Notes under the pieces: model-generated
The model's database searches: none
Told to the model about the DNA's origin: nothing
Seen by the model: only the letters and a program-made list of their open reading frames with translations
Shown: positions 152 to 2,487 of the stretch, piece by piece
Layout: each line of letters starts with the position of its first letter
Numbering within the stretch: the stretch's first letter is position 1
Program-made: the position numbers and the translations under genes
NCBI GenBank assembly: GCA_003650815.1
Contig: QMSB01000009.1
Location: 1 to 35,781, forward strand
DNA from: Thermoprotei archaeon
GTDB lineage: Archaea; Thermoproteota; Thermoprotei; Thermofilales; B15-G2
DNA length: 35,781 nucleotides
Direction: 5' to 3'

Positions 152-1969
152 CTATTCTTCTTTCTCCTCTTCTTCCTCTTTCTCGGGAATGTAGTAGTAT
201 TCCTTTAGAACAGTCTTCTGGTATCTGTCGAGCCACGAGCCTTCTTTGTTTATTCGAGGGCGTCCTGTCTGAAGGTCTCTTCTAAAGGTTATGTCGAGGT
301 TTTTGAGGAAGAGGTTCATTCCCTCCCTTAGTCCTGCTGGCTTGTGTGCGTAGCCTCTTTTCCCCGGTTCTCCTTCGAAAACCATTATTGAGGATGAGAG
401 GAAGTCCTGTGCTATTATGTCGTGTTCTACGACGAATACGGCTGCTTTCCTGTCTTCAGCCGCTTTTCTGATCATTTTTGCTGCTGAGAATCTCTGCTCT
501 ACGTCTAGGTATGCCATAGGTTCGTCTAGAAGGTATATGTCTGTGTCTCTGAGGAGGCATGCTGCTATCGCTGCTGCTTGCAGTTCTCCTCCTGACAGCG
601 ATGATAGTTCTCTGTCTAGCAGCCGGTCTAGGCGCAGGGGCTTGACTATTGTTGAGAGGTCTTTTGAAGACAGAGGAGAGTTTTTTGCGTGTTCGAGGAA
701 CTCTGATACTGTTCCCTCGAAATCTATTTCAGTGAGATACTGTGGCTTGTAGCTTAGGGTAAGGGAATTTACGGAGAAGACAGAGCCGTCTTTAGGCTTT
801 ATGTCTCCTACTAGTGTTTTGACGAATGTTGTTTTGCCGATTCCGTTTGGACCAAGTATGCCTATTACTTCGCCTCTGTAGGCTTCTCCAGCCTCTACGT
901 GTAGGCTGAATCCGTTTAAACCTATCTCTAGGTCTGTCCACTGGAGTATCAGGTCTTCTTTAGGGAACGAGCGGACAGGGGGCCTTAGGTGGAATACTAT
1001 GGGCTCTTCTCGTATTCTCATGTTCTCGTCTCTGAGGTATCCTTGGAGGAACGCGTTGATACCTGTTCTCACGCCTTTTGGCAGTGATACTATTCCGTAG
1101 GCTCCTGGGACGCCGTACAGTATGCAGACGTAGTCGGCGACGTAGTCTAGTACTGCTAAGTCGTGCTCTACTACTATGACGTATTTTTCTTCTGCGAGAA
1201 GCCTACGTATAGCTTTCGCTACTCTGATTCGCTCGCTTACGTCGAGGTAGCTGGAGGGCTCGTCGAACATGTAGACGTCTGCTTCTCTGAGAACCGCGGC
1301 TGCTATCGCGAGTCTCTGGAGTTCTCCTCCGCTCAAGTACTTTATCTCCCTGTCTTTGATGTGGTCTAGCCCTAGTTCTGAGATTACTTTATCTAGTCTA
1401 TTTTTCTCGTCAACTTGTGCGAGAACGTCTTCTACTGTTCCCTTCACGTACTTCGGAATCTTGTCTACGTACTGTGGTTTGTGCACTACTTTTAGTTTCT
1501 TATTGAAGACTTTAGTGAAGTATTCGAAGAGCTCGCTGCCTCTAAAAGCTTTGAGTATTTCTTGAGGTGAGGGAGGAGTCTCCGTTCTGCCTAGGTTGGG
1601 TGTTATTTCGCCAGCGAGTATTCTTACGGCTGTAGTCTTGCCTATTCCGTTTGCTCCTATGAGCCCCAGCGCTTTCCCTGGTCTGGGCAAGGGAAGTCTA
1701 TATAATTTGAAGCCGTTTACCCCGTATCTGTGTACGCAGAATTTCTCTAGCTCGTCAGGGAGATTGACTATTTTTATTGCCTTGAAGGGACATTTCTTGA
1801 CGCATATTCCGCATCCAGCGCATATTTCTTCATGTATCACGGGCTTTCCATCTTCTCCCATTTCGACAGTGTTGTCTCCTGCTCTAACTCTAGGACAAAA
1901 GCGTATACACTCTTTATTACACCGCTTAGGTTTACAAAGAGACTTATCAATAACAGCTACTCTTACCAT
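152..1969 (-). CDS. rli: ABCE1/Rli ribosome-recycling ATPase
   Basis: This soluble twin-ATPase splits post-termination ribosomes together with aPelota or aRF1. The N-terminus has two 4Fe-4S cysteine sets (C12, C17, C21, C25 and C50, C53, C56, C60). Walker A of the first ATPase domain is GANGIGKT at 105-112, and the second domain has GPNGIGKTT near residue 375. Both domains carry LSGGELQ signatures and DEP Walker B motifs (FDEPSSYLD and LDEPMAYLD). Its 605 residues are the usual size. The C-terminus ends in a Glu/Lys tail. It is the last gene of an operon, 14 bases after the TFS-like gene, and its stop codon lies against the 3' end of the convergent tRNA. Identification is firm. Confidence 0.98.
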   Translation of the reverse strand: MVRVAVIDKSLCKPKRCNKECIRFCPRVRAGDNTVEMGEDGKPVIHEEICAGCGICVKKCPFKAIKIVNLPDELEKFCVHRYGVNGFKLYRLPLPRPGKALGLIGANGIGKTTAVRILAGEITPNLGRTETPPSPQEILKAFRGSELFEYFTKVFNKKLKVVHKPQYVDKIPKYVKGTVEDVLAQVDEKNRLDKVISELGLDHIKDREIKYLSGGELQRLAIAAAVLREADVYMFDEPSSYLDVSERIRVAKAIRRLLAEEKYVIVVEHDLAVLDYVADYVCILYGVPGAYGIVSLPKGVRTGINAFLQGYLRDENMRIREEPIVFHLRPPVRSFPKEDLILQWTDLEIGLNGFSLHVEAGEAYRGEVIGILGPNGIGKTTFVKTLVGDIKPKDGSVFSVNSLTLSYKPQYLTEIDFEGTVSEFLEHAKNSPLSSKDLSTIVKPLRLDRLLDRELSSLSGGELQAAAIAACLLRDTDIYLLDEPMAYLDVEQRFSAAKMIRKAAEDRKAAVFVVEHDIIAQDFLSSSIMVFEGEPGKRGYAHKPAGLREGMNLFLKNLDITFRRDLQTGRPRINKEGSWLDRYQKTVLKEYYYIPEKEEEEEKEE

Positions 1970-1983
1970 AAAACTAAATAATT

Positions 1984-2277
1984 TTAGTCTTCTGAGCCTT
2001 CCCCTTCAGACTCAAGATAAGTTTCAGAGAATATCTCCTTGTATAGCTCCTGTACAAGCTCTCTCTCGGCCTCTTTCTTTTCTCTGTCTTCCTCTTTCTT
2101 CTCTATTACAGATGTGCGTGTGTGCATTTCATCGCTTACTCTGTACACCATTTTCATAGACTCTATGCTAGACTGCGTAACATTAACTGTGTATCCGCAG
2201 GCTCTACACGTGAGCAGGGTTTTTCCCTCTTTTTTGACAGGGTAAAGAACCTTTCCACACTTAGGACAGAATTCCAT
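1984..2277 (-). CDS. TFS/RPB9-type N-terminal zinc ribbon protein without the C-terminal zinc ribbon
   Basis: The 97-residue product starts with the typical RPB9/TFS zinc ribbon (C4, C7, C24, C27; MEFCPKCGK and CRACGY). Archaeal TFS normally has a second, C-terminal ribbon of the TFIIS type, with an acidic pair that drives RNA cleavage by RNA polymerase. Here that half is replaced by a charged Glu/Lys helix-forming stretch ending in EGEGSED. The product could bind polymerase through the N-terminal ribbon but should not support TFIIS-like cleavage (inference). I chose the ATG at 2277 over the GTG at 2286 because AGGTG (2284-2288) sits six bases before it and the family starts with MEFCPKCG. 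It lies between the microprotein gene and rli. Confidence 0.85.
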   Translation of the reverse strand: MEFCPKCGKVLYPVKKEGKTLLTCRACGYTVNVTQSSIESMKMVYRVSDEMHTRTSVIEKKEEDREKKEAERELVQELYKEIFSETYLESEGEGSED

Positions 2278-2283
2278 TCGAGA

Positions 2284-2288
2284 CACCT
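2284..2288 (-). promoter_or_regulatory. Shine-Dalgarno site deciding the start of the TFS-like gene
   Basis: AGGTG lies six bases before the ATG at 2277 and overlaps the TAG stop of the upstream microprotein frame (2287-2289). This is the arrangement expected for translational coupling of the two frames. Confidence 0.6.
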
Positions 2289-2379
2289 ACCATTCTTCTT
2301 CCCACTCCTCCTCCCATTCTTCTTCCCACTCTTCCTCTTCCTCCTCCCATTCTTCTTCCCATTCTTCCTCGGGTCTCAT
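2287..2379 (-). CDS. 30-residue Trp-Glu repeat microprotein (WEEE repeat), unknown function
   Basis: The frame starts ATG AGA CCC and then contains only Glu and Trp codons to the TAG stop. Residues 4-30 are seven Glu blocks or part-blocks punctuated by Trp at 7, 11, 18, 22, 26 and 30, with one six-Glu run at 12-17. The product would be extremely acidic, with Trp mostly every fourth residue, so a helix would carry an aromatic stripe. All variation between the repeat units is GAA versus GAG, which does not change the protein. AAGGA lies seven bases before the ATG and a TATA box about 35 bases before it. The stop is coupled to the start of the TFS-like gene. I recognise no family. A chance frame in a GAA-rich leader is the alternative. 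Confidence 0.6.
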   Translation of the reverse strand: MRPEEEWEEEWEEEEEEWEEEWEEEWEEEW

Positions 2380-2410
2380 AGCGAGTCCTTCTCTAGCTTC
2401 CTTTAAGGGA

Positions 2411-2419
2411 TATATAAAA
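2411..2419 (-). promoter_or_regulatory. TATA box for the microprotein, TFS-like and rli operon
   Basis: On the minus strand this reads TTTTTATATA. Transcription would start near 2388, giving a leader of about nine bases that begins around the AAGGA ribosome binding site. There is no space for another promoter before the TFS-like gene or rli. Confidence 0.65.
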
Positions 2420-2487
2420 ATAACTGTTGAAGTTCTTGGACAGTAGTAAATGACAGTATTTCTTGACGAGAGTCTAGAGCGAAACGT

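Follow-up and report, generated by a model that had tools for sequence, protein, structure and literature searches.

The window, that is, the whole stretch of 35,781 nucleotides that was analysed, harbors a 30-aa open reading frame (ORF) on the minus strand, MRPEEEWEEEWEEEEEEWEEEWEEEWEEEW, which reads from ATG to TAG (2379-2287). After Met-Arg-Pro its codons are solely GAA, GAG and TGG, with one run of six Glu, and a Trp precedes the TAG. The translation agreed exactly with the initial annotation on these points. On the minus strand this W/E microprotein gene is followed by a TFS-like gene and then by the gene for ABCE1:

2411 to 2420, minus strand: TATA-like element TTTTTATATA, about 36 nt upstream of the ATG (read by eye)
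2386 to 2390, minus strand: Shine-Dalgarno-like AAGGA, 6 nt upstream of the ATG at 2379 (by eye)
2287 to 2379, minus strand: W/E microprotein gene, 30 aa, supported by translation, homologues and selection
2284 to 2288, minus strand: AGGTG, the ribosome-binding site of the TFS-like gene, overlapping the microprotein TAG at 2289-2287 (by eye)
1984 to 2277, minus strand: TFS-like gene, 97 aa, N-terminal RPB9/TFS zinc ribbon and acidic C terminus (PF02150, 1e-7)
152 to 1969, minus strand: ABCE1/Rli1, 605 aa, PF04068 Fer4_RLI (N-terminal Fe-S domain) and two PF00005 domains

The TATA-like box, the AAGGA and the overlap of TAG and AGGTG had been brought forward in support of translation, and all three were located. 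The AGGTG is spaced by 6 nt from the ATG of the TFS-like gene at 2277. Since the microprotein TAG overlaps this ribosome-binding site, the two genes are probably translated together in the window. The proposed coupling of stop codon and ribosome-binding site was confined to this arrangement; elsewhere the ORF is usually set apart from ABCE1 by 40-370 nt containing a poly-T tract. Unlike most copies, the window copy has no T tract after the stop codon. The TFS-like protein matched TIGR01384 (TFS_arch) with 1.5e-7, under the cut-off of the model. ABCE1/Rli1 is the twin ATPase that splits and recycles ribosomes. A DNA pattern for WEEE-x-WEEE matched only the microprotein locus in the source genome (2.0 Mb, 85% complete).

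The search for the same frame in front of the TFS-like/rli genes of relatives, as suggested initially, was positive. ORFs of this type lie 5' of the TFS-like gene in four genomes, which belong to three further families of this order or class, and encode, each up to a stop codon, MVWEEEEFEEELEEWEEEEEWEEEEEWEEEW (L008), MAFEEEEWEEFEEEEWEEEWEEEEEEW (L012), MVFEEEEWEEEFEEEWEEEEWEEEEEEW (L016) and FFEEEWEEWEELEEEEWEEEEWEEEW (L038). The 61 genomes of this search included no other member of the family to which the window belongs. A disrupted or frameshifted repeat in related genomes had been named as counter-evidence; no frameshifted remnants were seen, while several TFS-like loci of the same order (L002-L007, L009-L011) had no such ORF in front. 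Some of the genomes lacking the ORF at this position have a W/E gene at another locus.

We also used a degenerate DNA pattern for WEEE-(0-9 nt)-WEEE, with the reversed pattern as control. It matched 18 of 81 genomes of the class (control: 0) and 105 of 398 Thermoproteota genomes, representing 61 of 163 genera (control: 2), and these counts are approximate, as a few matches are the tails of longer proteins (L048, L054, L056). Judged by the matching sequences, the W/E microprotein family is spread over the Thermoproteota, including many hot-spring and sediment archaea. At 11 of 13 Sulfolobaceae ABCE1 loci, a diverged acidic-Trp ORF, for example MEEDWEDIEEEDWEDIEEEDWEEDEW followed by a stop codon, ends 45-55 bp before ABCE1, and in one Sulfolobus genome a 34-aa ORF with GTG start, MVDVLVFEEDWEEEFEEFEEEEDWEEEEDWEEEW, directly precedes ABCE1. 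The ORF was missing before ABCE1 at two loci of one Sulfolobaceae genus (L255 and L258; genomes G401 and G157), and G157 carries a W/E ORF at an unlinked place (L229). No such ORF was present within 1.5 kb upstream of the sampled ABCE1 genes of families f9, f13, f17, f23, f25 and f43; ABCE1 therefore has no universal need for it. Viral contigs gave 30 pattern matches, mostly pieces of large proteins, and none of these was recognisably an ABCE1-linked W/E gene.

The collection comprised 130 distinct cores, 119 of which had been found without aiming at ABCE1. Seventy of these 119 copies adjoin ABCE1, compared to a rough chance of about one in two thousand per gene for a random position (from genome size), in a set that is phylogenetically non-independent and counts some lineages several times. 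In 55 cases the copy lies on the same strand less than 400 bp upstream of ABCE1, with or without a TFS-like gene between. Five linked copies are located 400-700 bp upstream, two further upstream, six are divergent (about 700 bp; L086, L103, L128, L133, L172, L213) and two lie several kb downstream. Four further copies are located beside a TFS-like gene on flanks that stop short of ABCE1. About 41% of the copies are not adjacent to ABCE1, and some are found beside other genes.

The linkage persists in varied arrangements and in deeply separated families. ABCE1 is the recurrent neighbour throughout the phylum, and the TFS-like gene is interposed only in some lineages. Since ABCE1 recurs phylum-wide, the link to TFS is a local form of a wider link to ABCE1, and its recurrence across the 119 copies ruled out the TFS-like gene as the main partner in general. 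The family is thus anchored to ABCE1 and not to the TFS-like gene, yet it is able to live elsewhere. Displaced copies occur in Thermofilum, beside an AbrB-like gene, and at L164, about 4 kb from ABCE1. The W/E gene survived divergence and displacement, so rearrangement did not remove it. A divergent or displaced position of the W/E gene relative to TFS-like/ABCE1 was observed at L086, L103, L106, L128, L133, L164, L172, L212, L213, L216, L239 and L270; where a family handle is known, these genomes belong to f16.

Genes with an AbrB/MazE-like N-terminal domain are a second recurrent neighbour of W/E genes, in Thermofilaceae and Calditenuaceae-like genomes (L039, L040, L043, L044, L045, L071, L098; L067, L078, L118). 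At L202 (G279), a W/E ORF lies 122 bp upstream of a gene whose product, judged by eye, resembles RadA. The copies away from ABCE1, some of them beside AbrB-like genes and one beside this RadA-like gene, make a single role for all copies uncertain.

The initial annotation had also stated that the DNA varies while the protein repeat is kept. This was borne out by 48 pairs of copies, matched solely by homology of the flanking DNA and entered if an acidic-Trp ORF was recognisable: 372 synonymous and 81 non-synonymous changes were counted over 1249 aligned codons. With GAA, GAG and TGG codons, no more than a third of transitions are synonymous, and the neutral expectation is therefore ≤33%; the observed share was 82% (p = 2e-101, with changes treated as independent). 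The replacements were chiefly Glu/Asp, Trp/Phe and Glu/Trp. A Shine-Dalgarno-like motif precedes the start codon in 87 of 122 copies (about 19 expected), and a TATA-like motif is present upstream in 86 of 130 (34 in shuffled sequence). Within 100 nt after the stop codon, a tract of at least five T, the archaeal type of terminator, was found in 101 of 129 copies (33 in shuffled DNA; 20 for tracts of at least five A). A scan for bacterial sigma-70 promoters and hairpin terminators, with bacterial models unsuited to archaea, returned nothing. These signals and the conserved residues support translation, and the ORF is very probably translated into a small protein in the cell. It is almost certain that this is a real protein under selection.

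The 112 distinct peptides consist of 73% Glu, 17% Trp, 4% Asp and 3% Phe, and the aromatic residues are mostly 4-6 positions apart. A typical member has about 23-50 aa and starts with Met and 0-6 further residues, usually including F, L or W, followed by Glu/Asp runs that are broken by Trp/Phe every 4-6 residues, and by a C-terminal -Glu-Trp. Three kinds of stop codon are in use. Of the 112 distinct peptides, 100 have an aromatic residue at the end, which is Trp in 90; among the 130 distinct DNA cores Trp is last in 108 and Phe in 10, and a minority end in Glu. This excess of C-terminal Trp over its overall share suggests that the peptide is released and that its C terminus has a function. We propose a family of Met-led peptides of less than about 60 aa, with at least 60% Glu/Asp, at least three Trp, an end in -Glu-Trp/Phe and purifying selection; the window peptide has these properties.

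AlphaFold predicted a single helix for the window peptide (mean pLDDT 94.6). Such confident helices may reflect a known bias for Glu-rich sequences. The helical aromatic stripe suggested initially was seen in the window copy (resultant 0.69) and did not hold for the family, whose periodicity was no better than shuffled (0.364 versus 0.351 at 100 degrees). We consider a conserved stripe unsupported for this reason, and a flexible chain with Trp anchors is the more likely form.

Neither Pfam nor NCBIfam contained a family matching the window peptide, with the handling of low-complexity sequence as a caveat to this result. The PDB gave no match to the Sulfolobaceae form, and no description of such a protein was found in the literature searched, in line with the earlier impression that no family like it is known. 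A Sulfolobus atlas of 2025 lists 95 putative small protein genes, and the passages searched in its main text do not mention such a protein (PMC12817955). It may nevertheless already be listed there as a nameless smORF.

What could the microprotein do? A role tied to ABCE1 or the ribosome is probable, and action in trans rather than in cis is likely as well, since the divergent copies and the displaced copies (Thermofilum, L164) argue for it. Chances are about even that a translated, stand-alone microprotein acts in trans in ribosome recycling and assists or restrains ABCE1 or its docking site. Direct contact with ABCE1 is conceivable and somewhat doubtful. Docking of ABCE1 on the 30S subunit relies largely on contacts of basic residues with rRNA phosphates, and upon splitting the Fe-S domain of ABCE1 shifts to h44 (PMC7196836). 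An acidic chain with spaced Trp anchors could bind ABCE1 at a basic surface that has hydrophobic pockets; alternatively, its target would be the 30S site where ABCE1 docks via the rRNA phosphates. Occupancy by the peptide might hold ABCE1 off or help its release, in the manner of other Trp-anchored acidic motifs such as that of eIF3j/HCR1 (PMC2824034, PMC3836723), and would in this way tune loading or release. We tentatively suggest an undescribed archaeal recycling cofactor, in which a free peptide of nearly two letters (Glu, Trp) attaches to ABCE1 or to its docking site on the 30S subunit and controls whether subunits split or re-associate; both the bound partner and the direction of the effect are our inference. 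Such a peptide would have escaped notice, since annotation and profile searches do not cope with so short a sequence of so simple a composition. The initial annotation had considered mimicry of nucleic acid or binding to a basic partner such as polymerase or ribosome, and our guess is that binding to ABCE1 or the ribosome is the better option compared to mimicry or polymerase binding.

Among the rival models, an acidic leader ORF acting in cis is the strongest; it is attractive since ABCE1 is the splitting factor. An N-terminal Glu-rich nascent chain would destabilise the translating ribosome, and abortion, re-initiation or read-through of the poly-T would set the ABCE1 level as a feedback on splitting capacity. 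In E. coli and yeast, translation is aborted by D/E runs at the N terminus (PMC9718836), and in Salmonella mgtB is under the control of a short acidic ORF (PMC8092293). The position of the 55 copies close upstream of ABCE1 fits this model and is a point against action in trans, because in many genomes the ORF sits where a leader ORF would. The gaps between the W/E gene and ABCE1 also contain a tract of at least five T in 52 of 62 cases (19 in shuffled sequence) without clear enrichment of TATA (25 of 48 versus 21). However, poly-T was seen by eye also after the divergent copies L128, L133, L213 and L270, and a separate TATA box for ABCE1 lies about 28 nt upstream of its start in one Sulfolobus genome. 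A leader ORF would always lie upstream and on the same strand as the regulated gene, whereas the same sequence persists in the six copies divergent from ABCE1 and in unlinked copies elsewhere in the genome. A generic D/E run would not need Trp residues and a C-terminal Trp as conserved as those of the copies. A leader as the general rule is at odds with the divergent and displaced copies, as well as with the conserved Trp at the C terminus, and we regard it as unlikely.

Acting on basic proteins at large (polymerase, ribosomal proteins, RadA), the peptide could be a generic acidic chaperone or a mimic of nucleic acid, its linkage to ABCE1 being a legacy of ancestral gene order. This reading would explain the extreme acidity, the copies beside other genes and the similar acidic-aromatic tails fused to zinc-ribbon proteins. 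We consider it quite unlikely, as the linkage survives in same-strand, divergent and few-kb arrangements in deeply separated families. The linkage to an Fe-S protein and the C-terminal Trp or Phe of most cores would also suit an adaptor for Fe-S insertion, which, in analogy to yeast Lto1, maturing Rli1 via a conserved C-terminal Trp (PMC4523923), might bring an archaeal Fe-S assembly factor to apo-ABCE1. But the eukaryotic signal is [LIM]-[DES]-[WF], with Glu normally at -3 here, and the motif is missing from archaeal homologues (PMC10623007). In addition, the deca-GX3 region is absent and Glu is the last residue in a minority of copies; we consider the adaptor very unlikely. The DNA at the window ORF resembles a tandem repeat, as expected for a slippage-prone purine repeat lacking protein function. 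This explanation, like a chance origin, was refuted by the 82% synonymous changes with mostly E/D, W/F and E/W replacements, the near absence of the control pattern and the translation signals, and it deserves next to no weight.

A recycling partner acting in trans remains our preferred reading. Few proteins of archaea and eukaryotes are as conserved as ABCE1, and a selected microprotein tied to it over much of the Thermoproteota would add a component that existing reconstitutions of recycling have been without. Carriers include the Sulfolobaceae, in which archaeal genetics and ABCE1 biochemistry are established. A protein of almost only two amino-acid types can persist over deep evolutionary time, and low-complexity filters hide this class.

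Several known systems share features with the W/E peptides. DSS1/Sem1 is a small acidic disordered protein with aromatics among Asp/Glu. It differs by description, being longer, without a repeat and with other partners, and the search for similarity, which low-complexity sequence limits, gave no Pfam family at the threshold used. LysW has the C terminus EDWGE. Some archaeal and bacterial LysW-like zinc ribbons (PF21344) possess a similar Glu/Trp tail, whereas the window peptide has no zinc ribbon and no Cys and ends in EEEW; membership in LysW was rejected. LysW-like or CPxCG zinc ribbons with C-terminal Glu/Trp or Glu/Asp/Trp tails were observed at L158 (PF21344), L168, L203, L092, L124, L160 and L166, and a cysteine-rich zinc-finger-like protein with a W/E tail and no Pfam match at L197 (G367). 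A subfamily in f24 (L157, L188-L193) starts with MS[RK][RK]KTPPK, contains EDWGE and adjoins a conserved gene of unknown function, which is also the neighbour of the copy at L187.

The mgtQ-type leaders likewise are acidic short ORFs upstream of a gene, whereas W/E copies persist divergent or far from ABCE1 with conserved Trp and C terminus. Lto1 and the CIA signal share the C-terminal Trp and serve Rli1/ABCE1, but have Leu/Ile/Met at -3, where the W/E peptides have Glu, and a deca-GX3 region that is missing here; the window peptide has no Gly. Its end, -EEW, corresponds to half of the [LIM]-[DES]-[WF]-COOH signal, and CIA/Lto1 membership was rejected. In eIF3j/HCR1 the motif is part of a larger protein, and the W/E peptide is a free chain of 23-50 aa, rich in Trp and lacking any further domain; the window peptide, with 30 aa and no match in Pfam or NCBIfam, does not have the full-length eIF3j architecture. 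Both have an acidic segment with Trp, a putative anchor in the W/E peptide, and a genetic link to ABCE1/RLI1: a conserved Trp anchors the acidic domain of eIF3j/HCR1 (PMC2824034), and extra ABCE1/RLI1 suppresses the deletion of eIF3j/HCR1 (PMC3836723). Acidic Trp motifs are present in the W/E peptide, and their Trp might sit in a hydrophobic pocket of a partner, as the motif of eIF3j/HCR1 does.
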